Below, one piece after another: positions 3,538-59,486 of a stretch of DNA of 64,000 bases. Below the pieces are notes generated by a model that saw nothing but the letters and a program-made list of their open reading frames with translations, ran no database searches and was not told the DNA's origin. Position 1 is the stretch's first letter. Every line of letters begins with the position of its first letter. The translations under genes and the position numbers were made by a program. This stretch comes from Hemileia vastatrix (taxonomy: Eukaryota; Basidiomycota; Pucciniomycetes; Pucciniales; Zaghouaniaceae), in the NCBI GenBank assembly GCA_030280995.1, contig JASXTE010000005.1, positions 14,868,001 to 14,932,000 on the forward strand, written 5' to 3'.

Positions 3538-3590
3538 CAGAAAGGGCCAATCAAAGACAACAGAGATTTAAAAGACCTAGCAGATCCACA

Positions 3591-3607
3591 CACCACATTG
3601 GGCGCCA
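3591..3607 (-). promoter_or_regulatory. B1 primer binding site
   Basis: Four bases inside the LTR edge the minus strand reads TGGCGCCCAATGTGG, one base from the TGGCGCCCAACGTGGGG form known as the tRNA-Lys (CUU type) primer binding site of many retroelements. The first CpG is kept; the second has become TG. Confidence 0.6.
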
Positions 3608-3611
3608 GAAA

Positions 3612-4045
3612 TGTAGACAATCCTATAGTACTAGCTATAGGCCTTGACCAAGGGAGTTGGAGTAAAACCAGAGAGAAAACCCCTGTACCATTAGAAAAAT
3701 AGAGTGAGATTTACCTGCTACAGTAAATTGGTTTCTGTTTACCGAAATCCCCTCTTCCAACACACTTGACTGCCTGATCAGTCAAGAAAGTAGTCCCCAG
3801 ACAGACTACCAAACCAAAGAACTGAAATGTAGACCAATGTCCACACCAGAGAAAGAAATGATACTTGATTTAGGTTGCAAATCCAAACCAGAGACAGCAA
3901 TAATAATTCATATAGCTTGCAAGACTACACCAGAGAAAACAGTTGCTAAGTTAAGTTAAATGAAGAACTCACTTTGCAACAAACACAGCAAATTGTGGCC
4001 AGAAAACAATGAAGACTGAGTGAGGAACAAGGATATCACCTCCGG
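3612..4045 (-). repeat. B1 5' LTR, primer-binding-site-proximal part
   Basis: Matches the last ~430 bp of the B2 LTR (20908-21336) in reverse complement, ending in TGTAGACA (the complement of the TGTCTACA LTR end). It is cut at 4045 by A1; the rest is at 61981-62641. Confidence 0.88.
4042..4045. repeat. 4-bp target site of A1 (left CCGG; right CCAG at 61981-61984)
   Basis: The intact family-B LTR reads CACCTCCGGATGG here on this strand. CCGG precedes the A1 5' LTR and CCAGATGG follows its 3' LTR. The single mismatch is a CpG-to-CpA transition. Confidence 0.65.
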
Positions 4046-5379
4046 TGTGGCATTCCACATCTGGGTATGCCACTTAGGTGAAAATTTGATTGAATATTGG
4101 TTGAAAGGAAATTTTGGTGTTACCAGGTGTTTATTTGGTTACTATGGATATTTTTGGGATAATTTTTGGCATTTTTGAATGGTTATATGATGGTATTTTT
4201 CTTGTGATTTGATGGTTTTATGGATTTGGAGATGGTCTTAATAGATTTTTGGGGTGATTCTCTATCTTTTGGGTATTTTCTGAAGCTCTTTTGGGTTTAT
4301 TTTTGGAAGATTAGTAGCAATTTTCTGGATTATCAGGCTTGATATTTGGAATTTTTGAAGGTGATTATTATTATTGGATAGCCCAGATTTTACTCTATCT
4401 TTTGTGTCTTGATGGTTTTTTATCATATTTTACTGTTTTCTTAGTGTTTTACTTGATTTAGTGTCTTTTAGTATTATTGGTGGATATGGTGTGCTGATGG
4501 AATGGCCACTGAGCTCCGGACCTCCTGTGCGCTCCAGTTTGCTCTGGTGATTTTACGGTGCAAAAGCAAAGTGTTCTCCAAAAATTCTGTCATTGTGGCA
4601 AAGTTTGTTCATGGTGGCAAAATTATCTCACTGTGGCAAATTTAGCTCAATCTGGCAAAATTAGCTCATTGTAGCAAAATTTACTCACTGTGGGAAAGTC
4701 TGGTCACTGGGTTAAAAATTGGCTATTGTGGCAAAATTTGGTTAGAAATTTATTATGCTTACTAGATCAATAGTTTATTGTAGATCCTATGCATGTAGGA
4801 TATTGTTGGAAAGCTCAGGAGTAGGAGAATCAGATAGAAAGGGAGGAATCTTAGTCTTCTAGAGGTTTTTTGTCTTTTAGTTTCGATAAGAAGGGTCTTT
4901 TTGGATATAATTAACAACCATATTCATATTTTTTTTATTACACAACAAATTTAAATAAATTGTAATACCCTTATAACATTTATATTTTTTATAACACTTT
5001 TGAAATACAACACAATAATTATATTTTCATCACATATAAGGTATCATTGGAAAGGTCTCCATCTCCGGGACTTGTTTTTATTGTTAACTCATCAAAATAA
5101 AATCTTTATAAAAATATATAAGTCTATCTTTTCAGATATTTCACTGGGACACCTTAATTGTTGTTATCAGTATTTCTTTTCCAACAGCCTCTATTTCTAA
5201 ATCTCAATAAGCATTCATAAAATCACAGTTTCATCTATATTTTAAATCAATTCAAGTAGACTAGTAAGCTTAGTTATTTGAGCAACCCTTATTTTACTTA
5301 GAAGGACAGGGTTTTCTATGGTTTATCCAACTCCTTCGGATTCTGCTTACAGCAAGGCAACTGTAAGAGTCTTTCTACA
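4046..5379 (+). repeat. A1 5' LTR (1334 bp)
   Basis: Begins TGTGGCATTCC and ends TTTCTACA; matches 60666-61980. The 19-bp length difference between the two LTRs is one unit of an internal tandem repeat. The 66-codon ORF inside it (also near 61601) is not supported as a gene. Confidence 0.9.
4590..4741 (+). repeat. 19-bp tandem repeat in the A1 5' LTR, eight units
   Basis: Eight degenerate units of the type TCACTGTGGCAAAATTAGC, all 19 bases long, run head to tail. The 3' LTR has seven (61210-61342). Such an array could bind a factor or position a promoter; function is unknown. Confidence 0.85.
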
Positions 5380-8073: not shown

Positions 8074-9811
8074 AGCAGGGGCTTATCACTCTAATGTTGC
8101 AATCTCTCCCCAGGATAAGATCCCAGATTGCAATAGGTCAGCTCAATTGGAGATAATTCAAGTGAATTCTCAATTATTTTCTGTGAATAATACATTAAAT
8201 TGTTATTATGTCTTCAAATTTTTGAATTGTCTCACTTCTCTGTCAAGTTTTTTGATCACATTCAAGAATGGATCAAGAGGGAAGATGGGAAATATTATGT
8301 TGAATAAAAATTGGAATGGTTTATTTTCTGACCTCCAGAAAGAGGGTAAACTGCAATTATTTCATCAAAATTTTATAAAAAATCTTAGTATAATTAAAAC
8401 ACAAAAAAATAATTTTTTCAAGTCCTCCAGCAAGAGGATAAAATGCCAACTTTTTTACAGGTGATTTTATGATGGATAAGGGAATTAAAGGTGTTGGAAA
8501 ATTTGTTGATAAATTAGACAAAGGAAACGGGAAAAAGGTTAAATTTAAAAATGAAATAAAATATCATTCTGCTTATTTTGACTCCAATTCTGATGATGAA
8601 GAGAACTCCTTTAATGAAATTTTTAATGGAAACACAAAAATAAATATTTCACCTCAAGTTTATGTAGATGTGGAAGCAGCAAAAAATAAAAAGGTAGCAA
8701 ATAAAATCTGGCCAATTAATGAGCTGCTACCAGCTGAATTAAATCCACCTTTGAGAAGACCAAGGCTATCAAGAGATCTTTATGAATGTCCCTTGGTGAA
8801 GAATCCGCCCAAATTTTTGAAACATCAAGAATCACGGTTGATAGATTAGGTGTTGTAAATTTTGGACCTGATGGTTGGTTTTCTGGAGAAGAGAAGAAGT
8901 TGTTGTTGGACGTGATGGTCAAGCAAGAGAAGGCCATTGCTTTTGTAGAAGAGGAGAGGGGTGTGTTGAAGCATTCCTATGGGGAGCCTTACAAGATTCC
9001 TGTGGTATGTCATGAACCGTGGCAGCAAAAACCATCCTAATTCCAGCTGTATTAAAAGAAGCTTATATCGAAGTTGTCAGAGAACAGATTTGCACTGGAC
9101 TGTATGAGAGATCATCATCAAGTTATTCTAGTCTGGTATTTTGTATCAAGAAACCAAATGGAAAATTTAGAGTAGTTCATGTTCTCAGGGAATTAAATAG
9201 GGTTACAATAAAGGATGCTGGGATACCAACTAGTGCTGAGGAGTTTGTGGGAGTGTTTTCTGGGAGAGTGTGTTATGGTTTAGGAAATATTATGGGGGGA
9301 TATGATGAGAGAGAGTTGTATACAGACTCTAGGCCTCTCACTACTTTTGATACACTGCTAGGACAATTACAATTGACAAGATTACCTCAAGGAGCAGTAA
9401 ATTAAGTTGCTGTTTATCAAGCTCAGATGGCTTGGATTCTTCAAGATGAAATTCCTCAATATGCTGGAATCTTTATTGAAAATGGAGGAATTAAAGGACC
9501 TTCAACAGATTATGATAATGAAGTGTTGGAGGAGAACCCAGGGATACAAAAATTCATCTGGGAGTATGCAATCACTTTAGAGAGGATCTTGTTTAGAATT
9601 GAAGAAGCTGGTTTAACTATTTTGGGTTCAAAATTTTCATGTTGTGTTCCAGCTTTAGAGATTTTAGGTCATGTGGTATGTAGAGAGGGTAGGATTATGT
9701 CCAAGAAGAAAGTGAATAAAATTCAGTCCTGGTCAAGACCCAAGAATATGACCAAAGTTAGGGGGTTTTTAGGCATATGTGTTTATGTTCAAATGTTTAT
9801 CAAGGACTTTT
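8074..9811 (+). pseudogene. A1 pol part 1: pre-RT region and reverse transcriptase
   Basis: Homologous to B2 pol from its first residues to the end of RT. The TAATG stop-start of family B reads TAGCAGG here, so the start is gone. The pre-RT spacer (about 8100-8740) keeps two hairpin-TAAA motifs at 8332-8353 and 8424-8445. RT spans about 9000-9800 (VVHVLRELNRVTIKDAG, GLGNIMGGYDERE, LPQGA). The active-site loop reads FIEN where B2 has FIDD: both metal-binding aspartates are replaced. Frameshifts lie near 8800-8850 and 9020-9040, and a stop near 9403. The gene is cut at 9811 by C1 and resumes at 18289 in frame (IKDF then SSLEALLRRLTRK). Confidence 0.85.
9807..9811. repeat. 5-bp target site duplication CTTTT of C1 (right copy 18284-18288)
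   Basis: CTTTT immediately precedes TGTCAG of the left LTR and immediately follows CTGACA of the right LTR. Removing C1 and one copy restores the A1 pol frame. Confidence 0.93.
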
Positions 9812-18288: not shown

Positions 18289-20244
18289 CTTCATTGGAAG
18301 CTCTGTTGAGAAGGTTGACGAGAAAGGATGCAGACAGGGAGTGGGATGAAGAGTGTGAAAGGGCATTTGGGAGATTGAAGAAGGTTGTGGGGAAGGATTT
18401 AGTCCTGCACAAGTTAGATTATGGAAAATATTCTTGTAGGATTTATTTAGCAGTTGACTCAAGTCAGGTTGCTGCTGGGGCAGTTTTGTCTCAGATGGAT
18501 AAAGCTGGTTACATTAGGCCAGTTAGTTATGAATCTGTGGCATTCACCAAAGTCAAATCAAGATATTCTCAGCCAAAATTGGAACTGTGTGGAGTGGCAA
18601 AAATTTTAAAGAAACTTCAAGATGTTTTGTGGGGCCAACACTTCGAATTGCAAGTGGATGCAAAATCTTTAATTCAAATGATTAATTCCCCAAGTTTACC
18701 AAATGCACCTATGACTAGATGGGTAGCATTCATTCAAAATTTTTCTTTCGACTTAGTTCATAAGCCTGGCAAAACTTTCACTATGCCAGATGGTTTGTCA
18801 AGAAGACCACCCACTGAAGATGATTCATACTCAGAAGAGTTTGATGAAGATATGCCTATGATTAAAGCCAGCACTAAAGGAGCTGAAGACTTTCCATACC
18901 TCCCCCATGAGATTAAACTGGCAGGACTATTGTGTATAGATAATTATGGTGATGACCTCTACCAAGAGGATAAACTGGAAAATTATTTTTATGAGGATAA
19001 AATTGATGAAATTGGTGTAGATAAATTTTGTAAAAAAGAGGTAGAAGAAGATGGAGTGGTAGTTTGAGATATTAGTAGGTTAAGGAAGGGTGTATATGTT
19101 GGAGAATTAGAGAATTTGGTTAAAAAGAGGATGGACAAATCTATGTGTATAAAGGGTGAAGAAGAGAAAGAGGTATTTTTGAATTCGGTTTCTAAGAGGT
19201 CAAAAGGTTTAGAAGAAGAATATTGACATAGTTCAATCAAGAATCAAATTTGTGGTCAACGTCTATTGTCTCATTCATGTGCAGGTGATATTGGTGATAG
19301 AGGAGTGCCCATTGATATTATATTAATTGATTTTCAAGATGAAGTCTGGGGTCAGAATGGTTTTTATTTGTTGTTGGTCAAATATTTATTGACTTTAGAA
19401 AGGCCAGAAGATTGTGAAGATGATGAATGGGTGGCTATAAAAAGGAAGTCATATACTTTTTACTTTTCTGGTCAACAATTAATGAAAAGGAGGTATCCAA
19501 ACCCTCAAGTGGAATTATCTAAAAAGAAAGGGCAAGATTCAGTATTGAAATCACTGCATGATGATCTTTGGAATGGAGGCGTTGGAGAAACGTTCAGAAG
19601 AATTTCTGATTGATTTTGGTGGCCTGGCATGAAGATGGCTGTTAAACAGTGGTTTCAGTCATGTGAAGAATGTCAAAGAAGAAGTTATTTAAGGCAGAAA
19701 GAACCTGGACATGCTACTGGAGAAAATACTCTCTTTGGAAGGGTTAGTTTGGATGCTGTTCATATTAAGAGGGAGAGTAATAAATATTTAATTGTAGCCA
19801 GAGATGATTTATCTGGTTGGGTAGAGGAAGCGCCTCTTATTAATTTGACTTCCAAAAATGTGGCAGAATTTATTTTGAAAAATTGGGTGTATCAATATGG
19901 AGTTATGAAATTGGTAACAGTAGATGGAGGTCCTGAGTTTGGGACAGAGTTTAGAGAAGCTATATCAAAAGTTGGGTCAAAGGTTAGGGTAGCAACCCCT
20001 TATTATCCTGAAGTTGAAGGTATGGTTGAAAGAGGGCATCAAGTTATTAAGGATGCTTTAGTCAAAATTTGTGGGCCAAGTGCTGAAAAGTGGAGGCATT
20101 ATTTACCTTTAGTTTTATTTGCTGATCAAATTACTGCCAAAGGGACAATCGTATTTTCACCCTATGAACTTGTTTTTGGACAGAAAGCAGTTTTACCAGT
20201 TGATTTGGAAGCTGAATCATATCTCCGAGTTGACTGGGACACGG
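18289..20244 (+). pseudogene. A1 pol part 2: RNase H and integrase core
   Basis: Continues A1 pol from 9811 in one frame. RNase H (about 18420-18810) shows LAVDSS, ELCGVAK, QVDAKS and MPDGLSRR, so the acidic residues are kept. A linker holds two hairpin-TAAACTG motifs (18899-18921, 18956-18978). Integrase has the zinc-binding domain (SLHDDLW, CEECQRR; the second His region is altered) and catalytic D, D, E in LDAVHIK, VDGGPEFG and MVERGH. In-frame stops are near 19065, 19224 and 19611; the first and last align with Trp and Arg codons in B2. The frame is cut at 20244 by B2 and resumes at 57614. Confidence 0.87.
20241..20244. repeat. 4-bp target site of B2 (left ACGG; right ATGG at 57614-57617)
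   Basis: Joining GACACGG to TCAAGAC restores the A1 integrase frame across the insertion. The one mismatch between the repeats is a CpG-to-TpG transition. Confidence 0.7.
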
Positions 20245-21340: not shown

Positions 21341-21357
21341 TGGCACCCAACGTGGGG
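21341..21357 (+). promoter_or_regulatory. B2 primer binding site
   Basis: TGGCACCCAACGTGGGG, four bases after the LTR end, differs at one base (a CpG-to-CpA change) from the tRNA-Lys (CUU type) binding site TGGCGCCCAACGTGGGG. Confidence 0.7.
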
Positions 21358-21426: not shown

Positions 21427-23808
21427 ATGGCTTCTGGTTCTGCTATTCCTGTGGTGACTGTCAGTGGGGGGGATGGTCCTCCTTCTGTGATGGTTAGGGA
21501 GTGTGTGAGGATTAAAACTTGGGATGGTACCAAGTTTAATGGGGAGGATGTCAAGTGGTTTCTAGAGAAGTATGAAGCTTCTGCTGGAGTGGATGGTGCT
21601 TCCTACCTGGACATGTTGAAGCAGATTATCTTCTTCATTAGGGATAGGGCAGTGGAGAAGGAGGTTGTGGCCATGCCTGGCTACAAGAAGAGGGATTGGA
21701 AATTGTTGTGTAGGGAGATGGTGGATAGATGGGGTGTCAGGTTCACTATGGTGGATCTGAACAAGGTTTTCAGTGAATGGCAATCTTATGGTGGTGTTGG
21801 TAACTTACATAGTTACAGGACGTTTCTGCTACAGTTTGATCCTGTGGTGGAATATTTGAAGGAAGTGGAGGAGCTGGCACATGAAAATGCTGCCAAGGAT
21901 GTTTTTTGGTCTACCCTGGCTAGAGATGTCAGGATGGATGTGTTGAAGGAGCTGTCAAGAAAGAAATTGATGAAGACTCTTTCTAATGGGGATCAGAAGT
22001 TGCCTGCCTTGGATAAGGTGAAGGAGGCTGTTGAGGCCCATTTGAAGTTATTGGCTGTGGACACCTATCAGGAGGGGTGTGCCAAGTATGTCAGCAAAGT
22101 CAGTGAGGCTTTGGCTGAAGAGGAAGTTAAGGAGAAGAAGGAGGAGAAAAATTTGGTGATGGTTCCCAAACAGGAGAGGGACCCAATGGTGGAGCAGTTG
22201 GCTGATCTGACAAAACAGCTTCACATTTTTGTGCAGGAGGCTAAGAAGGTTAATAAGGCACCTTCTCAGCCCAGAGATTTTGAAAGGAGGGCTGGTAGGA
22301 GTGATCCTTGGGTTTGCTCTTATTGCAGTAGGAGGGGGCACAGGTCCAATGATTGTTGAGCATTGAACAAAGATGTGTCTGAAGGAATAGTGGAGTTTGA
22401 TGGCAGATTTTTTAAGTTCCCTGACGGTTCTTTTGTGAAGCCCAGTGAGGGGCAGGCTCCTGTGGATTTGGTCAGGAGAAGGGGTGGTCTCAATCAAAGG
22501 AGGCCAAGGTTTGAGGAGATTCCTGATCAGGGGAAGTCTTCTGTTAAGGTAGATGAGGACGTCAAGGGAGAGGGGAAGGAGGTCAATAAGGTCTCTTTTT
22601 CTACTTCCTTTGGTGGTTTGGAGTTGTATTCTTGTGGTGGATAGTCAAGTGTTGAATGCTTGGCTGGTGTTTATGATGTGGAAGCAGGAAAGGTGGGAAG
22701 GCCTAAGAGCAGTTCTCAGGCCCAACCAAAGCCAAATGCTTCAAAGGGTGATCCTAAGCTGAGTGCAGCTAGGAAGAGGTACAGCAAAGAGGAGCTGTAC
22801 AAGATGCAGAAGGGTTTGGCTGATATGGGCCCCCCTATTTTTGGTGCATTGGACCTGAATGGTGAGCCAATGCCAATGGAGGTGGATTCTGACTCTGAGG
22901 AGGATGTCCCTTTGGCTTCATTGCCAAAGCCTGTTGGAGTCAGAGGTTCTGGTGAGGGATCTGGTTTGGTTCCTGTTAATGGTAAATCTGTTGGTGGTGC
23001 TGGTCCTCAAGAAGCTTCTAGGACCAAGGTGGTGAAGCAAAGAGCTCACTTTGAGAGGCCAGTAGTGTCTGGTCAAGTTAATGTTATGGACTCTGTCCTG
23101 GAAAGGATGAATCAGGGTCAGGTTTCCCTATCTTATGGGGAATTGTATGCTATCAGTCCAGGGTTGGCTGATAGACAGAAAAAGTTGTTGACCAGAAGAA
23201 GGGTGTCTTCTGGGGAGGTGGAATACATTTGTGATTCTGCTGAAAAGTTTGGTGAGGGGTTGGAAACTCATTTCTCTGCTCCTCTGGGATATCTCAATGT
23301 CACTCTGAATGGCAGGGAGGCAAGGGCATTGGTGGATTCAGGCTCTCAGATAAACCTGATTTCTTTGTTTGAGGCAACTCATATGGGCCTCCCCATCAAA
23401 ACTGGTATTGGTGGGAATTTGAGAGGGATTGGTGGCCATGTCACTGAATTGGTTGGAACTTCAGAGTTTGTGAAGTTAGATGTTGGCGGAGCCTCAGGGA
23501 AGGTTCATTTTTACATTTCTAAAGGTAATGTAAAAGCAGTTTTGGGTGGGCCATTCTTGATGGATTTTCAGGCAAGAATTGGTTATCAATTTGATTTGGG
23601 AATCAGTTTGGAGTTGAATGGTGAAGATGAAAGGAGACTTCACATGAGGTTGTCATCCCCTGGAGAGGATGGTCGGGAGACCAGGCCTGGTTTATCTTCA
23701 ATGTGCCAGTGCATGGACTGCTGCAGGAGAAGGAAGGAAGTGGGTGCTGCCTCTGGTTTTTTGGAGTGCGGCTCAGGCTCTATTGAGAGTCTGTCTTTTT
23801 TAGAGTAA
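21427..23808 (+). pseudogene. B2 gag-protease ORF, two nonsense mutations
   Basis: One frame of about 790 codons encodes Gag and protease, making particles and processing the polyproteins. I place the start at the ATG of MASGS (21427); an upstream in-frame ATG at 21406 is possible. Order: gag N-domain (VRIKTWDGTKFNGEDVKW), helical region (ELAHENAAKDVFW), Lys/Glu-rich helix, zinc knuckle CSYCSRRGHRSNDC (about 22315-22357), basic linker, Ser/Pro-rich linker, and aspartic protease with VDSGSQINLIS intact near 23330 and a GIGGNLRGIGG flap-like segment. The frame is interrupted by TGA at 22357 (aligned Trp in B1, right after the knuckle) and TAG at 22642 (Gln in B1). It ends at TAA 23806-23808, overlapping the pol ATG. 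Confidence 0.88.
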
Positions 23809-24325: not shown

Positions 24326-24413
24326 CCTCCAGCATGAGGTTAAACTGCAGAAAATTTTGAAGAGAGAAGATCATCAAGATCGATTTTTGGGCCTCCAGCA
24401 TGAGGATAAACTG
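24326..24413 (+). repeat. Two hairpin-TAAACTG motifs inside B2 pol
   Basis: CCTC-loop-GAGG followed by TTAAACTG at 24326-24347 and ATAAACTG at 24392-24413. They encode LGLQHEVKL and LGLQHEDKL. A1 and B1 have equivalents at the same places. Confidence 0.7.
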
Positions 24414-26434: not shown

Positions 26435-26493
26435 CCTCCCCCATGAGGCTAAACTGGACAATTGTTCTGACCTCCCCCAAGAGGCTAAACTGG
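26435..26493 (+). repeat. Two hairpin-TAAACTG motifs between RNase H and integrase of B2
   Basis: CCTC-loop-GAGG then CTAAACTGG at 26435-26457 and 26471-26493, encoding LPHEAKL and LPQEAKL. A1 has the pair at 18899-18921 and 18956-18978. Confidence 0.7.
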
Positions 26494-28118
26494 CTGGATC
26501 TGATCTTGATTCTGGTGATCAGGATGTTTTTGTTGATGAAGATGGAGTTGTTGTTTGGGAAAGCTCAAAATTTGAAAAGGGTGTTTTTGTTAGTGAACTG
26601 GATTCTCACAAGGTTCAGTGGAAAGAGAAGGACGTGCTGAAATTTAAGGATTGGTGTCCTGGTTGGGCTGCTCAATTAGCTCATGTTCACACTGGTGATT
26701 TTGATGACAGAGTTGTACCCTTGGATGTTGTTTTGTTGGATTTTGAAGATGAGACCTGGGGTCAGTCTGGGTTTTATTTTATTTTGGTGGAGTATCTTTT
26801 GACCTTGGAGAGGCCAGATAGTTGTGATGATGATAGTTGGTTGGCAATCAAGAAGAAGAGTCCTGGATTTTATGTGTCAGGAATGCGTTGATGAGGAGGA
26901 GACATCCAAATCCTCAAGTGGTGGTGACTCAGAAGAAGGGTCAAGAATTGGTTTTGAAGTCTTTGCATGAAGACCTTGGTCATAGAGGCTTTGGGGAGAC
27001 TTATAGAAGAGTAGCAGACAGATTTTGGTGGCCAGGTATGAAGTTGGCTGTGCAGGGTTGGGTTCAATCTTGTGAAGAATGTCAAAGAAGAAGTCACTTG
27101 AAACCTAAAGAGGTAGGCCGTGCTACTGGTTAATCAACTGTTTTTGGAAGGGTCAGTCTGGATGCTGTCCATATTAAAGAGGGCAGGTATAAATACTTGA
27201 TTGTTGCTAGGGATGATTTGTCTGGTTGGGTTGAGGCAGTTCCTCTGGTTAATTTGACTGCCAAGAATGTGGCAGAGTTTTTGAAGAAGGAGTGGATTTA
27301 TAGGTATGGGTTGATGAAGTTGGTGACTGTTGATGGTGGGCCAGAGTTTGGTGCCAAATTTAAAGAAGCTGTGGCTAGTGTTGGTTCTAAAGTTAGAGTG
27401 GCTACACCTTATTATCTTGAAGCTGAAGGCATGGTTGAAAGAGGCCATCAAGTTATCAAGAATGCTTTGGTGAAGATGTGCGGAGATAGTGCTGAAAAGT
27501 GGAGGCATTATTTACCCTTGGTGTTATTTGCTGATAGGGTCACTGTGAAGAGGACAACTGGCTATTCTCCTTATGAGTTAATGTTTGGTCAAAAAGCCGT
27601 TCTACCAGTGGATTTGGAAGCTGTCTCTTATCTTGGAATTGATTGGGATGACGTGCACTCAACAGAAGATTTGCTCTGTGTCAGGATGCAACAGTTTAAA
27701 TGTAGAGAGGAATGTAAGGAGAAGGCATACTCTAGAATGATGAAGATTAGGAATCAATCAGTCAGGTACTGGGACAAGAAGTTGGCTCATAGACTCAGGA
27801 ATCCCTTGAAACCTGGTTGTTTGGTTTTGGTGTATAATAGAAGTTTGGAGAGTCAGTGGGGGAAAATGTTTGCTGACAGATGGAATGGACCTTACAGAGT
27901 CAGATCTCAGGCGTTTGGAGGTTCTTATGTTTTGGAAGAGTTGGATAGTGCAGTCTTGAAAAAGAGGGTGGCTGCAGACCAAGTGAAGAGGTTTTATCCC
28001 AGAGGCACTAGGCATGAAGAAGAATAACTCCGCAATGAGGATAATCTATGGAACATTCTTTTTTTGTTTTGGAATTTTTGTGGTGTTGCAGAGCAACTTT
28101 TGTGTGGAAAATTTTTGT

Positions 28119-28300
28119 TAGAAGGTACCCATGGGTGGGGCTTCTAGATTTGATCTTGGCAAGTGTAGGGGTGACTGATGGGCTGGCTGCTCTATCAACA
28201 GTTACCCCATATTGTCTGTTTCCAACCCTTTTTCTTAATTTGGTTGAACCCTAGTATTGGTTTATTTTCACAGGTTTTAGTCCTCTATGACTTTAAACTG
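28119..28300 (+). ncRNA. Structured 3' module, copy a
   Basis: Three hairpins in order. H1: TAGAAG (28119) pairs with CTTCTA (28141). H2: GGGGTGACTG (28168) pairs with CAGTTACCCC (28199) around the invariant loop ATGGGCTGGCTGCTCT. H3: AGTC...GACT-type motif with TTTAAACTGG at 28279-28300. A partial H3 relative sits at 28027-28047 just after the pol stop. Typed ncRNA as a predicted cis RNA structure, not a separate transcript. Confidence 0.65.
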
Positions 28301-28380
28301 GAATTTACTCTGGTTTTCATGTGCTGGTCTCTTCACTCTTATTGGTTTTGGTTTTTTTGTGTTGGATGTTGTGTTTTTGT

Positions 28381-28561
28381 TAGAAGGTACCCAGGGGGGC
28401 TTCTAGATTTTATTTTGGCAAGTGTGGGGGTAACTGATGGGCTGGCTGCTCTGTAGAACAGTTACCCCAGAATGTCTGTCTCAAGTCTTTTGTTTTTACT
28501 AGTTGAATTCTAGTTCTGTTGTTTATTATTCAGGTTTCAAGTCCGCTATGACTTTAAACTG
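28381..28561 (+). ncRNA. Structured 3' module, copy b
   Basis: Same order as copy a, about 265 bp downstream: H1 TAGAAG (28381) with CTTCTA (28400); H2 GGGGTAACTG (28427) with CAGTTACCCC (28459), a perfect 10-bp stem; H3 at 28540-28561. The two copies look like a tandem duplication. Confidence 0.65.
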
Positions 28562-28607
28562 GTTTGGGACTGGCTTCTTTATCTTTGGTTTTTCAGATTG
28601 GTGGTGG

Positions 28608-28661
28608 ATCACTGGTGGTCTCCCATCATTTTTACTTAATGGAGGGAGCCCACCCAGTGAT
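28608..28661 (+). ncRNA. Hairpin H5
   Basis: ATCACTGG at 28608 pairs with CCAGTGAT at 28654; the inner arms GGTCTCC and GGGAGCC are nearly complementary. A1 has a counterpart at 58558-58607. Confidence 0.55.
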
Positions 28662-28839
28662 CATTTCTATGGACCGGACTTTCTCTTATTGGGCCATCTA
28701 TGGAGCTGGACTTTCTTTGATTTTGCAGTTATGTTTTTGCTAGATAGCAGTTTTAGATTATTTTCTTTTTTCTCTTTTTTTCTTTTAATTTTTTTATGGG
28801 GGTTGTTTAAAATTATAAAATAAAAAATATAGGGTGTTA

Positions 28840-28915
28840 CCACATCAGGGTCACCTGGATGTGGGAAAGCATTGGTGGGGAAAGGCTCATCAATTGGCCG
28901 GGCATTGCTATTCTC
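28840..28915 (+). ncRNA. Hairpin H4, copy 1
   Basis: CCACATC (28840) pairs with GATGTGG (28858), extended inside by AGG with CCT. It is followed by GGC-TCATCAATTG-GCC (28884-28899). Copy 2 is at 29035. Confidence 0.55.
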
Positions 28916-29034
28916 TTTTTTATTTATTATTTATTTTATGTGTTTCTGTGTTTCATTATTTTTATTATCTTCTGAATTTCCAAATTTTTTGAATTTTGTT
29001 TTCTGTTAACCATTTAAAAGAATTAATTGTGTAT

Positions 29035-29104
29035 CCACATCAAGGTGCACTTGGATGTGGGTAAGGTATCAGGGGATCAGCTCATCAATTGGCTGGGGGA
29101 TACC
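29035..29104 (+). ncRNA. Hairpin H4, copy 2
   Basis: CCACATC (29035) pairs with GATGTGG (29054), extended by AAG with CTT. A second stem GGTATC (29065) with GATACC (29099) encloses CAGC-TCATCAATTG-GCTG. The arms differ from copy 1 in a compensating way. Confidence 0.55.
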
Positions 29105-29295
29105 ATTTGTATTATTTTTTATATTATATTTTATTTCATTTATGTTATTTCATTTCATTTTAACTATTAATTTTTTATTTTAGTATATCAGTAGACAAAA
29201 AAAAATAAAAATAAAAAATAAAAAATAAAAAATTCTGAAATTATTTTTATTATTTGTTTTATATTATTATTATGTTTCTAATCTTTTACAGGAGC
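29105..29295. other. AT-rich spacer
   Basis: A and T runs including an AAAAAT-type simple repeat at about 29200-29230. No gene or structured motif seen. It lies downstream of the stop of the antisense gene and could hold its polyadenylation region. Confidence 0.5.
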
Positions 29296-30866
29296 TCATT
29301 GTCTGGATGATGAAGCTCCTGGAGGCTTGTCCGGATTTTGATGATGTTTTTGTTTTTTGTTGGGATTGTGGGAAGCACTGTGTTCTTTGAAGTGCATCCT
29401 TCTGGAGAGATTATAGTGATTGTAATGGTCAGGGATTGGATTAGAGGGAAGTTCAGAGGAGGAAGAAGAAGAGGCAGGAATGGAGTGCTGGAGGGTGTGT
29501 TTAATGATCCTAGACATTTTCCAGTGGTCGTCCAGTAGGCGCTTTCTCAGGGATTTTTCAAAGTCATTCAAAGGTCCATGGAGGGCAAAGGCTTTTAGCA
29601 TATTGGAACATATGGTGCTTAGGTGTTTCTTCATGTCTCCATAATCCAGGGTCAAAGAAGTTTCAAGAGTTTGGCCAACTCCAATAATAGATTCAGGAGG
29701 AGGGGTGCCAACTAGACAGGAAGAATTGGATCAGTAATTATTTTTGTTGAAGAAATGGAATAATTAATTTGGTACTTACAGATTGGAAGCTCATCAAATC
29801 TGTAAGCAGCTGGGATTTGGATCTCTGACAATTTTGTAATGGTTATAGTGGGTGGATCAACTAGGGAAAGATAGGGATTCTCATGGTCTTCCTCTGAAGG
29901 ATCCTGAGAAGGTGAACTGGGATGCTAATGTTCCTGGGGCCTAGTTGGAGCAGTGAGATTGTTGTTGTTGTTGTGGTTGTTATTTCTGTTGGATTCGGTT
30001 GGAGGAGGTGCTGGTGATGGAGTACCAGGGTTGTTAAAGGATGGAGCAGGAGAGGGGGATTTGGAAGCAGACTGCTCTCTTCTGGATGGAGAATTTGAAG
30101 ATATGGAACTTTCAGAAGAGTAGTTGGCTGACAGAGGAGAGGTGTAGTTTCTTTGTCTTAGTTGGGGACGAAGTTGTTGTTGTGGAGCAGTGTGTGGTGT
30201 TCTGGTTTCTTCTTGGGATTCTCTGGCAGGTCTCTTAGAAATCTGGTAAATTTTGGTGCTTTTGGACTTTGGAAGGGTGGATTGCATTGCTCTGGGAGCA
30301 GTAGGAGGTAGTTGGGTTGAGTTGTTGTTGTTGTCTGGATGAATTTGGCTGTTTTCTGGCCGTTTTTGGAGGTTTTGGCCCTGATATTCACTGTTTGGTG
30401 AGGCAGGCAGGCTGCCCGACGTCGGCCGGGCTGCCTGGAGGTGGTCTAGAAGCCTTGGAGTTGATCTTGAAGCTTTTGGAGCTAATTTGGCGGAGATAAA
30501 AGCAGTTTCTTGTGAGGCTAAGGCTGGTCTTTTGGGAAGAGTGCGGGAAGCTGAGCTTCTGGATCTTCTGGAAGGAGCAGAAGATAGAGAGGAAGAGGAA
30601 GGACCAAGCTCTGGGGATCTGGTAGGAGATCTGGAGATGTATTTGTGAGAAGGAGAAGGAGGAGGAGTAGGGTAGTTGGCATCTCTGTCACATCTTGTCT
30701 TTTTGGAATAGCAAGAGTCACAAGCCCTGTTGTAGAATTTGGATTCAGGATTTGGAAGAGTGAATGTGCAAGGTCTGCACATGTGGATGCACTGTTTGCA
30801 GGCATAGTCCTTGGGAGCAGTGAAGCAAGGGAGAGTAGAATGGTTAACATCAGGAGATCCAGCCAT
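29296..30866 (-). pseudogene. Antisense gene 1 of B2: Cys-rich, Ser/Pro-rich protein, two exons, one stop
   Basis: On the strand opposite gag-pol, an ATG at 30866 opens a frame that continues through one TAG (29925-29927) to a 5' splice site GTAAGT at 29779. A 68-bp intron (29779-29712, with ACTGAT branch-like site and TCTAG acceptor) joins in phase to 29711-29296. Ignoring the TAG, the product is about 500 residues. The N-terminus has ACKQCIHMCRPC and then CDSCYSKKTRC, a C-x2-C-x6-C with basic centre like the first half of a fungal Zn2Cys6 cluster. The middle is low-complexity Ser/Pro/Arg. The C-terminal exon (LDYGDMKKHLSTICSNMLKA) looks helical and ends basic. No known full-length family recognised; nucleic-acid binding is inference. 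The TAG may be a CAG-to-TAG mutation. Confidence 0.65.
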
Positions 30867-31018
30867 GATCTGTGGTGAGAAAAGATGATGAAAAGGGATA
30901 GGAGGAGATTTTTTGTCAGTGATGGGTAGATGATGAAGTGAAGGGGAAAGCTCAGGAGGTTGGCTGTAGAGGTGTGCTGCATGAAATTGGCTGCATCCAT
31001 TTTATGCAAAATTCCGTC

Positions 31019-31276
31019 AGTCCATCAAGACTCTAAACTGAAAAAGCTATGTTATCAAGTCAGTCCATCAAGACTCTAAACTGAAAAATCTATGGTATCA
31101 AGGCAGTCCATCAAGACTTTAAACTGAAATCTGGTTTCTGTTAGTCCTCCAAGACTTTAAACTGGCTGGTTTCAAGATGTTATCAAGGCTAGTCCGTCAA
31201 GACTTTAAACTGAACACTGTGTTAGTCCCCCAAGACTTTAAACTGAGGGTTGTGAGTCCCCCAAGACTATAACCTG
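31019..31276 (+). repeat. Array of seven hairpin-TAAACTG (H3) motifs
   Basis: Copies start at 31019, 31062, 31105, 31143, 31191, 31224 and 31255. Each is AGTC, a six-base loop, GACT, then one or two bases and TAAACTG (the last reads TAACCTG). Spacing is irregular (31-48 bp) and the spacers are unrelated, so this is not a simple tandem repeat. Confidence 0.75.
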
Positions 31277-31319
31277 AGGAAAAAGTTTTTGTTGTTGGAG
31301 TTGGTTTTGAAAGATTGGT

Positions 31320-31501
31320 GGAGGGTATCCACAGGGGGAGCCTCCAAATTTAGCAAAGGCAAGTTTGGGGGTAATTGATGGGCTGGCTGCTCTATTTACA
31401 ATTACCCCAGAATGTTAGTTTTTTCTCTGTGTCTTAATGTGGTTGATCTCTGGTTCTGGGTTTATGATTTAGGTTTTTGAGTCCCCCAAGACTTTAAACT
31501 G
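31320..31501 (+). ncRNA. Structured 3' module, copy c
   Basis: H1: GGAGG (31320) pairs with CCTCC (31341), where copies a and b have AGAAG with CTTCT. H2: GGGGTAATTG (31368) pairs with CAATTACCCC (31399) around the same 16-base loop. H3 at 31480-31501. Order and spacing match copies a, b and d. Confidence 0.68.
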
Positions 31502-31511
31502 AGGGTTTTTG

Positions 31512-31560
31512 AGTCCCCCAAGACTATAAAATGAGGATGGTCCCCCAAGACTTAAAACTG
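31512..31560 (+). repeat. Two further H3 motifs
   Basis: AGTC-loop-GACT with TATAAAATG at 31512-31533, and GGTC-loop-GACT with TAAAACTG at 31539-31560. Both are slightly degenerate. Confidence 0.6.
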
Positions 31561-31621: not shown

Positions 31622-32262
31622 TCAAGTACTAGTGGAATTACAGAGGGAATCAAGAGATGAAATGAAGTTTTCAGAATTAGCCTTGAACTGGTGAATGAGG
31701 TGTCTTCTGTTCTCAATGTCCTGTGGATCTCTAGCAGGAGTGGATTGGAAGTAGTGAAGCAGAAGTTGTTTCTGTTGAGATGTGTGTTGTTGGAACTTGG
31801 CCTTGATAGTGGGCAAGTGCGTTGGTTTTGGTGGTGAAATGGATCCTACATTGTTATCATCACTATCAGAAGAGGGAGGAACTGAGAAGTTATCAGTTTT
31901 AAAGTTGAAGGAAGAAATGAATGTTCTTTACCCACAGATGGACCAGGGATGGGGGAACTAGTTGTTTTATGGGTTGTGGCACTCTTCTGGGAAGGGTGGA
32001 GCTTTTTGATTAATCTGGGTATCAGGATGGATGGCCTAGATCTTTTGGTGTTGGCAGAAGAAGGACCAGGTTGAGGTGGAGGTGAATCTGTTGTGGAAGA
32101 AAGTGGACCAGGTCTGTGGCAGGTCTTCTTTCTGGATTGGCAGACATCGCAGGACGTTCTGTATGGATAGACAGGTGGTGTCATGGCCCAGATTAAATTA
32201 TTGTCAATGCAGTATTGGCAGGGGCCCATTTCAGAGGCAGATTTGGGAAGAAGGTTAAACAT
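31622..32262 (-). CDS. Antisense gene 2 of B2: small Cys-motif protein, two exons
   Basis: The ATG at 32262 starts exon 1, which ends at 31932 before GTAAAG. A 50-bp intron (31931-31882) has a CTGATAA branch-like site and ends TTCTCAG. Exon 2 (31881-31622) joins in phase, giving about 196 residues with no stop. Features: PCQYC then CDVCQSRKKTC (C-x2-C-x6-C, basic), a Ser/Pro linker, an acidic patch (SDSDDNN), and a C-terminal helix with LLLHYFQSTPARDPQDIE. The frame is open upstream into the LTR (to 32382), so the start is uncertain. The N-terminal pattern resembles antisense gene 1, suggesting an ancient duplicate. A decayed homologue sits at 60124-60516 in A1. Function unknown; a regulatory or RNA/DNA-binding role is inference. 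Confidence 0.68.
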
Positions 32263-32300
32263 GGTGGTTGAATGAAGAAAGAATGCGGACATTCTCAATT

Positions 32301-32310
32301 GGAGGGAGGA
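32301..32310 (+). promoter_or_regulatory. B2 polypurine tract
   Basis: GGAGGGAGGA directly abuts the 3' LTR; A1 has the identical ten bases at 60656-60665. Confidence 0.8.
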
Positions 32311-33003
32311 TGTGGTCTTCCAACATTGGCAGGGGCCTTTGTTGTGTGATTTGGCGCTGTTTGTGCATGTCTTAATTGACATCTGTTAAGGAATAGGGTA
32401 TTTTTCTGGTTTTATTCCGTGGATATTGGGTCTGCAGGTATGTGGGTACTATGATTGGATATCCCTGGTTTTTCTCTATATTTTATGTCTTGTAGACATT
32501 TTTCATATTCTAAGTTTTAAGGGGTCATTTCCTCATTTTTCATTTATAAAAGATTGCTGTTTAATTTTGTTTTTCGTGTTTTACAGGCTAACCTTAAGTC
32601 TTAGGGTTAAGTGCTTAGTACCATTGGATAAAGCTAATTTTTCTCTATATTTCATGTCACAAGGTTGTTATAGTGAAATTCCGTGTTTTAAAGGTTTTAG
32701 TAGTTGTAGCTAATTTTTCTAAGTAGATTAGTGGTTTTTGTTGGTTTTCTGGCTTCAGGGAGGCCGGGCCGCTTCAGGCGGCATCTACGACGTTGGGCAG
32801 CCCGCCCGCCTCTGTTTTAGGAGGTTGGGGAGCGCTCCAGGAGGGTTTTTTATGCAATTTGGCGGGTACAGGAGCCAGATTGGTGGGTGCGCAGGGGCTC
32901 TTAGTTAGTGGTCTGTGTGTACATAGTGAATAAGACAGTTTGGGGCAACCTTAATCATCATACAACCATCCGGAGGTGATATCATTGTTCCTCACTCAGT
33001 TTT
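32311..33003 (+). repeat. B2 3' LTR, first part
   Basis: Matches 20245-20937. Broken at 33003 by the family-C array; resumes at 57214. The two parts total 1093 bp, in line with the 1092-bp 5' LTR. Confidence 0.93.
32999..33003. repeat. Target site duplication GTTTT of the family-C array (right copy 57209-57213)
   Basis: GTTTT precedes TGTCAG and follows CTGACA. The uninterrupted 5' LTR has a single GTTTT at this point, so the whole 24.2 kb array sits in one insertion site. Confidence 0.95.
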
Positions 33004-56031: not shown

Positions 56032-57208
56032 TGTCAGTACAGTCTAGTATATAAGTATGATATAATAGTGTTATTTTATGGTCCAACTACTTATTAATAA
56101 ATGATTTAGTGATTAAACCTCAGGGGAAGACTAATAGAATAGTTATACTCAATTTAAACTCACAATACTTGGATTTAAATGCGTGCTAGTGGTGGAAAAT
56201 AGAAGAATAAAATATAGTTATAGCTTTTATAAAGATAATATCAATTTATAAGGGCTTTATAATATATTTCTGAATGTTAATAATTGTAGTGTAATGTTTA
56301 TTTGAAGTGTAGTAATTGAATGATTATAATAAACCGTCAAAATCCCTCCTTACTTATACCCAAATCCACTGGAGTGCACAGACCTTCAATCCAGATGATG
56401 TCACTGCTATCCCCGGCAATTACAGCACTGTGAGGGCCCATCACCTCCCCATGGCGTCCACTTCAAGCAGTTTCAACACCCAGACCTCCAGTAAGGACCC
56501 TCCATCACTATTAATAATAACACAGAGTCATACCATAAATAGAAATCCCAGATAAAAGCGGATACCATAAAGAAACAGGTAAAATAAAAGATCAAAAAGA
56601 GATTTAATGAAACTAAAAGCATATAAAGGAAACAAATAAAATGTCCAAGCCCCCAATAACATCCCCAAGCATCCACATTAACCCAAAAACATATTTCCAA
56701 CCCATAAATCCGTGAATAACCATCCAAGGAAGTAATTTTAGTTGTCCAAACTGGGTGTATGCGCCTGATATAGGTGTCTATGCTTCTGTAGGCGTTGTGA
56801 GTCCACTGATTTCGTCCATATGACCTAAAATAAGCAGAAAAACAAAGGTTATAGGCTATTAAGGGGCTAAAACCCACTTATATACCTAAATATACATAAT
56901 ATACTGCATATTTTACTGAATATGAGATTTATGTATACATATAAGCTTATGTATGTCAATAATTACTTCATATCACTTAAGATAAGTATATTATGACTCC
57001 ATTAACACCTTAATAAGTATTATTAGGCCATGGATAAGCTATTTAAACTATTATAAATTATATAATAGAATAATAATTATATATATATATCATAAAATAA
57101 TATATATTCTTATTTTAACCTTATTTTTAAGATATAAGCTTAATCTAGTTAAGGTTATCTTATTTTAAGCATAAGAAATACTCAGTCCTAAGGATATTTA
57201 GGCTGACA
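56032..57208 (-). repeat. Array LTR 4 (1177 bp)
   Basis: 5' LTR of unit 3. Differs from LTRs 1-3 by T for C at 56914. Ends CTGACA against the right GTTTT target copy. Confidence 0.93.
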
Positions 57209-57213
57209 GTTTT

Positions 57214-57613
57214 CACTGTTTTCTGGCCACAATTGGCTGTGTTTGTTGCAAGTGAGTTCTTCATTTAACTTAACTTTGGCAACTGTTTTCTCTGTTATAG
57301 TCTTGCAAGCTATAGCAAGTATTATTGCTGTCTCTGGTGTGGATTTGCAGCCTACATCAAGTATCTTTGCTGTCTCTGGTGTGGACATTGTTCTGCATTT
57401 CAGTTCTTTGGTCTGGTAGTCTATCTGGGGACTACTTTCTTGGCTCATCAAGCAGTCAAGTGTGTTGAAAAGGAGCTTTAGCAAAACAGGAACCAACTTA
57501 CTTTAGCAAGTAAATCTCACTCTATTTTTCTAAAGGGACAGGGGATTTTCTCTCTGGTTTTTCTCCAACTCCCTTGGTCAAGGCCTATAGCTAGTACTAT
57601 AGGATTGTCTACA
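57214..57613 (+). repeat. B2 3' LTR, second part
   Basis: Matches 20938-21336 and ends GTCTACA, directly joined to A1 integrase sequence at 57614. Confidence 0.92.
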
Positions 57614-58011
57614 ATGGTCAAGACTACTATAGAGTTATTATGTGCAAGAATGATGCAGCTAGAAAAGAAAGAAGAGTACTTAGAAAAGGCATATTTGCTG
57701 ATGATGAAATACAAAATCAGTCAGTAAGATATTGGGATGAGTGGTTGGAACATTGACTTAGAAAACCTTTGAAAACTGGAGATATGGTTTTGGTGTATAA
57801 TAGGAGTTTGGAGAGCCAATGGGGCAAGATGTTTGCAGATAGGTGGAATGGACCATGTAAAGTCAAGGAACATGTATCTGTTGGTTCATATGTTTTAGAA
57901 GAGTTGAATGGAGTGATACTAAAAAAGAGGGTAGCTGCCAATCAAGTTAAGAGGTTCTATCCTAGAGGTACTACGAGGACAGAAGTTTACTCTGCAATGA
58001 GGATAAACTAA
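57614..58011 (+). pseudogene. A1 pol part 3: integrase C-terminus
   Basis: Joins in frame to A1 pol at 20244 and then matches the end of B2 pol: CARM-like helix, a frameshift near 57700-57715, NQSVRYWD, a TGA near 57754 (aligned Arg codon), VLVYNRSLESQWGKMFADRWNGP and KKRVAANQVKRFYPRGT. It ends about 20 codons past the B2 end. An H3-like motif (57989-58009) overlaps the last codons. Confidence 0.85.
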
Positions 58012-58061
58012 ACAAAAAAAATCACTCATTATCAAGTTTAACTCCGGAATGAGGATAAACT
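57989..58061 (+). repeat. Two H3-type motifs at the end of A1 pol
   Basis: ACTCTGCAATGAGG then ATAAACT at 57989-58009, and ACTCCGGAATGAGG then ATAAACT at 58041-58061. B2 has the same variant at 28027-28047 after its pol stop. Confidence 0.6.
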
Positions 58062-58230
58062 ACTTTCTTATTAAAAATATTACTGTCGTTTTAATATGGT
58101 ATGGGAGGCAAAACTGTTAAAAAAGTGTTATGACATTTATGAAGACATTTGTTTGAAAATTCTTAAAACTCTTAAAAGCGACAAAAATTATGGGGAAGAT
58201 ATATGTTGGATTGATAAATTTTTTATTGGT

Positions 58231-58408
58231 AGAAGTGTTCACAGGGGAACCTTCTGAATTAAATATTGGCAAGTTTGGGGGTAATTGATGGGCTGGCTGC
58301 TCTATACACAATTACCCCACAATGTTCATTACTGATTTCTCCCTGTTTCTAGTTGAATCCTGGCTTTCTTTTTTGAATTATTGGTAGTCCACTAAGACTA
58401 TAAACTGG
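58231..58408 (+). ncRNA. Structured 3' module, copy d (A1)
   Basis: H1: AGAAG (58231) with CTTCT (58251), extended by GTTC with GAAC. H2: GGGGTAATTG (58278) with CAATTACCCC (58309) around the invariant 16-base loop. H3 at 58386-58408. Same order as the three B2 copies although the flanking sequence has largely diverged. Confidence 0.68.
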
Positions 58409-58607: not shown

Positions 58608-58733
58608 ATCATTATTTAAAAATTTCTATCATTTAAAAAATAAAAAAAAATATATAAAAAACAATAATAATAATAATAAACTTTCATTTAATTTATTATA
58701 TTTAAATTCTCAAAACTGTGTAACCACATCAAG

Positions 58734-58795
58734 TTGCACTTGGATGTGGGTATGATGTCAAGGGTACGGCTAATCAATTGGCCAGGGGGCATCTA
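58734..58795 (+). ncRNA. Hairpin H4 of A1
   Basis: CCACATC (58734) with GATGTGG (58743), extended by AAG with CTT; then a GATGTC/GGCATC-type stem enclosing GGC-TAATCAATTG-GCC (58768-58783). Third copy of H4 in the window. Confidence 0.5.
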
Positions 58796-59073: not shown

Positions 59074-59486
59074 AGTCCTCTAAGACTTTAAACTGGCTAA
59101 TTTTCAAGACTTTCTTTAAGGTCTTATTTGTATTCAAAATCTTTAGTCTTCTAAGACTTTAAACTGGATAGTTTTCAAGATTTTCTTAAAGAATTTGGTT
59201 CTCCTTTGGATGCTGTTAGTCCTTCAAGACTTTAAACTGAAAATTTATGAAGATTTCTTTTAATATTTACGAAAGCCTGGTCCACCATGACCTTAAACTG
59301 GCAAGTCAACATTCTTTGGTCCACCATGACTTTAAACTGGATTATCAAAATTATTTAATCTTTGGTCAAGCCTAGGCCTTAATTAGGAAGAAATCATTAT
59401 ATCAATGCACATACACGATCTTTAGTCCACTAAGACTATAAACTGGCAATCAATTAAAAGTTTGGTCCACCAAGACTTTAAAGTGG
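59074..59486 (+). repeat. Array of seven H3 motifs in A1
   Basis: Starts at 59074, 59145, 59218, 59279, 59318, 59424 and 59464. Stems vary: AGTC/GACT in most, GGTC/GACC at 59279 and GGTC/GACT at 59318 and 59464, each followed by a TTAAACTGG-like tail (AAAGTGG in the last). Confidence 0.72.

Follow-up and report, generated by a model that had tools for sequence, protein, structure and literature searches.

The stretch of Hemileia vastatrix DNA analysed here (the window; 64,000 nucleotides, assembly GCA_030280995.1, contig JASXTE010000005.1, forward-strand positions 14,868,001 to 14,932,000) holds two nested Ty3-type retrotransposons, A1 and B2, and in both of them lies a region of conserved hairpins. 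These hairpins are a selected RNA structure of the sense strand, a conclusion that we hold with high confidence. We propose, with a probability of roughly 0.4, that the region as a whole is a structured part of the genomic RNA serving as a multivalent signal, its most likely reader being Gag and its most likely use packaging. All genome-wide counts given below were made over the 747.6-Mb genome assembly of this fungus.

The unit that drew attention to the region is a module of three hairpins (H1, H2, and H3) placed between the end of pol (28027 in B2; 58011 in A1) and the 3' long terminal repeat (LTR). The original prediction had put four such modules at 28119, 28381, 31320, and 58231, and four there are, with measured H1 starts at 28119, 28381, and 31319 in B2 and at 58230 in A1; the stem letters it quoted and the order of the hairpins were likewise correct. 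The parts of the modules are the following:

28119..28146, + strand: H1 of module 1, 6-bp outer stem TAGAAG/CTTCTA
28168..28208, + strand: H2 of module 1, 10-bp stem with a G.U at pair 6 and the conserved 18-letter loop
28279..28300, + strand: H3 unit of module 1, AGTC/GACT hairpin with a TTAAACTG tail
28381..28405, + strand: H1 of module 2
28427..28468, + strand: H2 of module 2
28540..28561, + strand: H3 unit of module 2
31319..31346, + strand: H1 of module 3, TGGAGG/CCTCCA
31368..31408, + strand: H2 of module 3, GGGGTAATTG/CAATTACCCC
58230..58256, + strand: H1 of the A1 module
58278..58318, + strand: H2 of the A1 module
58386..58407, + strand: H3 unit of the A1 module

The stem of the first copy, GGGGTGACTG/CAGTTACCCC, contains the G.U pair. 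The H2 loop had been described as unchanged, which is true of the four window copies but not of the genome, where it varies. In the window, the 16-letter loop occurs four times, always exactly, against a chance expectation of 0.35 with up to three mismatches. Genome-wide, exact copies of the 18-letter loop number 7,014 (none for the reversed control), and places with up to three mismatches number 22,240 (22 for the reversed pattern). Most of the second-module copies examined carry TGATGAGCTGG in the loop, and several third-module copies carry GGCAGC. In four of the exact-loop places, none of the three leading stem letters is a G; in 63, stem position 8 is a purine. The C-G stem type is a real family, with 15 of 40 scored places, the query's own included, identical over all 110 letters.

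The strongest evidence for selection comes from asking how stem changes differ when they are shared by a lineage and when they are private to one copy. A shared change is one on a branch with at least three copies, made while the lineage replicated; a private change belongs to a single copy and is mostly decay after insertion. Copies of H1 and H2 were taken if the loop had no more than four mismatches and if at least 4 of the 6 pairs of H1 and at least 7 of the 10 of H2 were formed, with the 5' arm of H1 and the 3' arm of H2 set at the best of seven registers. Paired percentages are therefore too high, and both the filter and the choice of register hide broken private copies, which works against the contrast that we found. 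The covariance model that located the copies has its H1 helix one column off and was used for finding copies only. Three of 104 copies were dropped for a doubtful H1 register; the figures for the remaining 101 are means over 20 reconstructions on a midpoint root, which leaves the deepest ancestral states uncertain.

Pairing was kept in all 10.35 shared events, with 0 broken, and in 17.55 of 54 private events, with 36.45 broken (Fisher p = 9e-5 on rounded counts). As read on the + strand, the shared changes ended in Watson-Crick pairs in 6.9 events, in G.U in 3.4, and in A.C in 0. Private changes ended in G.U and A.C about equally often (11.6 vs 11.0), the symmetry that is expected without selection. 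As a G.U on the + strand is an A.C on the − strand, the structure acts in the sense RNA. Two-copy branches, excluded from the contrast, held 2.9 events, of which 1.5 were broken, with one A.C. A version with all 104 copies gave 7.0 Watson-Crick shared changes (three of them double), 3.8 G.U, and 0.2 other; the three double changes come from this run, which kept the three copies of doubtful H1 register. It is on the paired changes at family level, the + strand wobble, and the symmetric private decay that our conclusion of a selected sense RNA structure rests. Comparing shared with private stem changes among transposon copies is also a way to argue for RNA selection within one genome.

Shuffling the partners of the paired arms gives a simpler view, although such tests overstate the case because the copies are related. 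We used 48 of 50 distinct segments for H2 and 39 of 45 for H1, those omitted being mostly H1 segments of odd length. H2 cells were paired in 94.0% vs 91.9% with shuffled partners and H1 cells in 95.3% vs 87.9%, and in neither case were any of 500 shuffles as high. Changes on both sides are found at H1 pairs 1 (T-A, A-T, T.G, C-G), 2 (A-T, G-C), and 5 (A-T, G-C, G.T), and at H2 pair 8, which is C-G in 33 and U-A in 12 of the 48 segments.

A search of the Rfam 15 covariance models, which the original prediction had called for, matched no family in the window at gathering score, consistent with a structure that had not been recognised. A lax search (E up to 10) confined to 28000-29350 gave seven matches, none in modules 1 or 2; the best fell on a downstream hairpin, H4, described below, and reached 18.1 bits where the gathering score is 91. 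As no Rfam model matched in these searches, a known RNA family or a small self-cleaving ribozyme was rejected. Pairing of the H2 loop elsewhere in the element was also rejected, as the best run of 13 is the commonest value among 41 shuffled loops. The exact 18-letter loop found in three viral and 39 prokaryotic stretches is chance: none of the 42 has the stem, and the best arm match is 7 of 10.

The third hairpin leads beyond the module. H3 is present in each module, as predicted, but it is not specific to it and is repeated throughout the 3' regions and in pol; the module is real, but it belongs to a longer hairpin chain plus a dispersed hairpin class. This class follows the pattern NNUC-YNNNAW-GANN-NUAA, with stems CCUC/GAGG, AGUC/GACU, and GGUC/GACC. 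In its strict form (first loop letter C, paired stem, tail) it matches the window 24 times on the + strand and once on the − strand, and the lone − match lies in an inverted B-type element fragment at 1-4045, so that it too is sense. A first-order Markov control gives a mean of 0.06 and at most 2 on both strands. Six + matches are in pol (8332, 8424, 24326, 24392, 26435, and 26471) and the remaining + matches in the 3' regions; under the strict pattern, all are confined to B-type and A1 elements, with none in the chromovirus copies that interrupt B2. Without the tail, the pattern gives 25 (+) and 2 (−) matches against a control mean of 4.2, and so the tail matters. If the six loop letters are left free on the stem core, two units with T as the first loop letter are gained (18956 and 59145), along with a chance-like match at 7097 on the + strand; on the − strand that pattern gives six matches, five of them unrelated. 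H3-type hairpins number 12 in the 3' region of B2 and eight in that of A1. The units outside the modules are:

8332..8441, + strand: two H3-class units in the A1 pol region, lying in different frames in the A1 copy
18956..18973, + strand: H3-class unit in A1 pol, CCTC TACCAA GAGG
24326..24409, + strand: two H3-class units in B2 pol, CCTC CAGCAT GAGG
26435..26488, + strand: two H3-class units in B2 pol after RNase H, CCTC CCCCAW GAGG
28027..28044, + strand: H3-class unit at the B2 pol stop, ACTC CGCAAT GAGG ATAA, outer A/G pair unformed
31019..31276, + strand: seven-unit H3 array of B2
31480..31560, + strand: three H3 units following module 3
57989..58058, + strand: two H3-class units at the A1 pol end, ACTC...GAGG
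59074..59485, + strand: seven-unit H3 array of A1, including AGTC/GACT, GGTC/GACT, and GGTC/GACC

Twenty loci, chosen for having the exact loop, contain 275 paired H3 units against a control of 0.02 per locus. In the 19 loci with a single module orientation, 253 units are sense and 0 antisense; the remaining 22 are in one mixed locus. By stem, 138 are AGTC/GACT, 58 CCTC/GAGG, 49 GGTC/GACC, 27 GGTC/GACT, and three others. Most units were picked by a pattern that requires pairing, and the resulting figure of 97.6% paired is inflated. A count without the outer-pair requirement covers 103 distinct units at 590 places, of which 500 (78 distinct units) form pair 1 and 575 (90 distinct) form pair 2. 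Both pairs change on both sides, and wobble at pair 1 is G.U in 34 places vs A.C in 2 (6 vs 2 distinct units). Array unit number differs between copies, and several stem types and G.U forms arose with loop and tail unchanged. In viral contigs, the H3 pattern gave three single, chance-like matches.

The units in pol deserve separate attention. All four of those in B2 are in the pol frame, upstream of reverse transcriptase and after RNase H, where they encode L-x-x-E-x-K-L between unrelated flanking residues. Of 18 homologous proteins examined (of 120 listed; several of the 18 are partial), 17 lack this peptide, the other one, P0050, having an LPAELNL match, and on this comparison the nucleic acid, rather than the peptide, is likely the conserved thing. 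Leucine is written CTC and glutamate GAG, as the stem demands, a weaker point in sites that were found by a pattern requiring pairing. At the pol end, both elements carry the version of H3 with a mismatched outer pair, in A1 in another frame than in B2 and again past the A1 stop. In a family A copy (L073:1600-1800), the pol end has five CCTCCGCAATGAGGATAAACTA units spaced 45-47 bp, and their number varies among copies. Many stem-loops with a shared loop motif are thus spread over the element RNA, coding regions included.

A fixed loop and tail on a freely changing stem is the pattern of a protein-binding site, from which we infer multivalent binding. The protein could be one of the host, bound to sites that set how stable the element RNA is, where it is located, or how it is translated; the constant letters around a variable paired stem are what recognition by any protein would produce, and the units are sense only. 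We regard this explanation as quite unlikely.

The sites might also work in DNA, as inverted repeats for a dimeric DNA-binding protein, and B2 offers a candidate. It has two − strand open reading frames (ORFs), at 29925-30866 and 31846-32382, with CxxC...CDxCxxxKxxC motifs. We take these to resemble half a fungal zinc cluster. The hairpin arrays adjoin these ORFs, both proteins have the cluster-like motifs, and such proteins could regulate the antisense gene. However, half-site logic predicts AGTC/GACC to be as frequent as GGTC/GACT, contrary to the wobble counts at pair 1, and units in pol and a strict orientation are not expected either. Further, A1 has no antisense ORF of more than 64 amino acids between pol and the 3' LTR, and L073 has none of at least 80 amino acids; both carry modules and arrays, though either copy could be decayed. 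Action at the DNA level is very unlikely in our estimation. The same two copies, with arrays but no such ORFs, make the antisense proteins unlikely readers of the hairpins in RNA. The original prediction of a selected RNA structure is supported; binding by the antisense Cys-motif proteins, one of the roles suggested there, is disfavoured. Neither B2 ORF has a Pfam match at E up to 0.01, the TRP28 domain (PF04195) included; for the larger protein, a homolog search found none at E ≤ 0.001.

Downstream of the modules, both families continue with H4 and then a pair of hairpins, H5/H6:

28608..28661, + strand: H4, a long hairpin, ATCACTGG...CCAGTGAT
28840..28909, + strand: H5 (CCACATC...GATGTGG) and H6, copy 1, the outer stem of H6 (AGCATTG/CATTGCT) having a single mismatch
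29035..29104, + strand: H5 and H6, copy 2, outer stem GGTATC/GATACC
58724..58793, + strand: H5 and H6 of A1, outer stem GATGTC/GGCATC

The inner loop of H6 is kept, and its outer stem is AGCATTG/CAATGCT, GGTATC/GATACC, or GATGTC/GGCATC. In 43 of 44 distinct copies, the arms are paired in 258 of 275 cells within their length class; when arms are crossed between the 6-bp and 7-bp classes, only 35-36% are paired. This count pools family A with copy 2 of B, and those two were not crossed with each other.

Between H2 and H3 there is, in addition, a stretch of near-constant length across families with intron-like ends:

28214..28273, + strand: putative intron-like 60-nucleotide stretch of module 1, GTCTGT...CACAG|G
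28474..28533, + strand: putative intron-like stretch of module 2
31414..31472, + strand: putative intron-like stretch of module 3, GTTAGT...TTTAG|G

Its three copies in the B2 modules are 59-60 nucleotides long and run from GTYNGT to YAG|G. Among distinct stretches bounded, as the count required, by the end of H2 and the AGTCC hairpin, 55 of 60 begin GTYNGT, 54 of 60 end in YAG before G or A, and 50 of those 54 are 59-61 nucleotides long. Such a stretch, in a duplicated module between pol and the 3' LTR, could belong to an export or splicing-control element that keeps full-length RNA unspliced and exported, in the manner of constitutive transport elements or of the direct repeats of avian retroviruses. 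That explanation leaves the dispersed pol units unaccounted for, and in the small sample of copies examined none had lost precisely the 60 nucleotides. A pyrimidine at the third position of a 5' splice site is unusual. We would call an export or splicing role unlikely.

How far the hairpins extend among related elements was judged from 20 loci, picked for variety of match ends and not randomly from 137 scored integrase matches (themselves from 24,218 first-look candidates; the query was a relative from another source). Modules 1 and 2 lie downstream in 12 of the 20. In the other eight, which are alike among themselves, the H2 loop was not found within about 650 bases downstream. When pairing is demanded at pair 2 alone, all eight have at least one sense CTC...GAG hairpin at the pol end and no antisense one. 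The hairpin class may therefore be older than the module, the alternative being loss of the module. This module-less Ty3 lineage (L097, L099, L107, L108, L109, L111, L113, and L115) carries an H1-like stretch, AAGAG..CTCACAGGAG..CTTT. The named best matches of the window's reverse transcriptase include the rust fungi Puccinia striiformis, P. coronata, and Austropuccinia; further matches are to other basidiomycete yeasts, at lower identity, and to two proteins labelled as a bacterial metagenome bin. A pol alignment search of viral contigs found no relative.

Our preferred reading, put at roughly 0.4 above, brings these parts together. The 3' region from pol to the 3' LTR, with the pol linkers, would be a structured part of the sense genomic RNA that acts as a signal and combines the unique hairpins H1, H2, H4, and H5/H6 with many copies of H3. 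The repeated H3 would be a multivalent protein-binding site, and H1 and H2 may be stronger or regulatory contact sites. The most economical reader is Gag, as both families have a CCHC zinc knuckle in it:

22315..22356, + strand: CCHC zinc knuckle of B2 Gag, candidate reader (A1 counterpart at 6508)

Gag would read the hairpins and so pick out the full-length RNA to be packaged into particles. We take packaging to be the likeliest use, since the signals for localisation and packaging of Ty3 RNA, as described in two studies, depend on untranslated regions (UTRs) and POL and are imprecisely defined (PMC11381356, PMC4974528). Taken alone, this Gag and packaging step, which we draw from sequence, falls somewhat short of even odds. 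More tentative is the wider proposal of a dispersed packaging-signal code in LTR retrotransposons, in which Gag would read one hairpin class, present about ten to twenty times per genomic RNA in the pol linkers and in arrays beyond pol, together with unique anchor hairpins; that such a code evolves by array growth and compensatory stem changes is equally tentative. If this is true, the tandem repeats that other large Ty3 elements often carry between pol and the 3' LTR would not be junk but would serve as RNA signals.

Several points weigh against this reading. In H2, the pairs with two-sided changes number 4 vs 2.2 (reached in 30 of 500 shuffles) and the number of pair types was matched in 149 of 500, neither of which is striking. 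The original prediction had looked to covariation in a wide alignment, and an all-pairs test against a tree-based null (an R-scape-like script, 104 copies) did not reach significance, with E = 28 for the best helix pair, H2 pair 8, and E = 145 for H1 pair 1. The reason is that a single genome yields no more than about five families, in step with which many unrelated alignment columns switch. H3 has only four pairs, at −1.8 to −3.3 kcal/mol; its outer pair is broken in some repeated units (ACTC/GAGG, GGTC/GACA, and TGTC/GACT); and the strict H3 pattern has no match in gag, the LTRs, or the 5' leader. In yeast, Ty3 positions 429-4979 are reported to be dispensable when the proteins are supplied in trans, Ty3 RNA with only its two ends still having moved (PMC4974528), which speaks against a need for pol signals there. 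The packaging and dimer signals of Ty1, Ty3, and HIV-1 are known at the 5' end (PMC11381356).

The failure of the all-pairs test and the variable number of array units would also suit a mutational by-product, in which a neutral repeat multiplied through gene conversion and through tandem duplications made by reverse transcriptase, its pairing being inherited and not selected. However, stem types and G.U forms diversified while loop and tail stayed, shared and private branches differ as they do, and the H6 stems are self-complementary in two length classes that pair poorly when crossed. Such a neutral origin is very improbable, and a multivalent signal region read by Gag is the reading that we retain.

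For orientation, the landmarks of the two elements are as follows:

4046-5379 and 60666-61980: LTRs of A1, 94.4% identical
from about 20245: 5' LTR of B2
from about 32311: 3' LTR of B2, interrupted by chromovirus copies at 33003-57208 and resuming at 57207-57613

The region of B2 from pol to the 3' LTR measures 4.3 kb. The chromovirus copies within the B2 3' LTR are three; they lie head to tail, repeat every 7,676 bp, and are more than 99.9% identical. Directly after the B2 5' LTR, at 21341-21357, is TGGCACCCAACGTGGGG, which resembles a primer-binding site.

Among known systems, the constitutive transport elements of simple retroviruses are structured RNA downstream of pol and partly duplicated; they differ in that here there is no Rfam match and the units are many and dispersed. 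Retand (Tat) elements of plants have a long region between pol and the 3' LTR, antisense ORFs (as in B2), and tandem-repeat arrays; their hosts are plants, the B2 antisense ORFs lack TRP28, and the Retand paper makes no mention of a hairpin, stem-loop, secondary structure, or packaging (PMC11963269).

The nearest kind is that of the dispersed packaging signals known from single-stranded RNA viruses and from the pregenomic RNA of hepatitis B. In RNA viruses, these are many short stem-loops, spread genome-wide, that have a common recognition motif and are otherwise variable (PMC6281560; PMC7612645). Here, by contrast, the elements are LTR retrotransposons, the units are concentrated in pol linkers and the 3' region, and binding by Gag would be the counterpart of the viral recognition.

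In the titles and abstract openings of the search results listed, within an incomplete coverage of the literature, there was no report of such hairpins in fungal Ty3 elements, and the system is likely new there. The yeast Ty3 of Saccharomyces cerevisiae shares the Ty3-type gene content and a zinc-knuckle Gag (PMC11381356, PMC4974528). It differs in that a 5' palindrome drives dimer formation and most of pol can be dispensed with in trans assays, and no repeated hairpin of the H3 kind appears in the available parts of either description. Both say that localisation and packaging of Ty3 RNA need the UTRs and POL (PMC11381356) or the UTRs or POL (PMC4974528) and that the signals are not precisely defined; such a dependence fits a signal that extends through pol and the 3' region. 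A small, countable hairpin class with a fixed loop and tail is a concrete candidate for such signals, and other large Ty3 elements whose 3' tandem repeats are unexplained can be searched for it.

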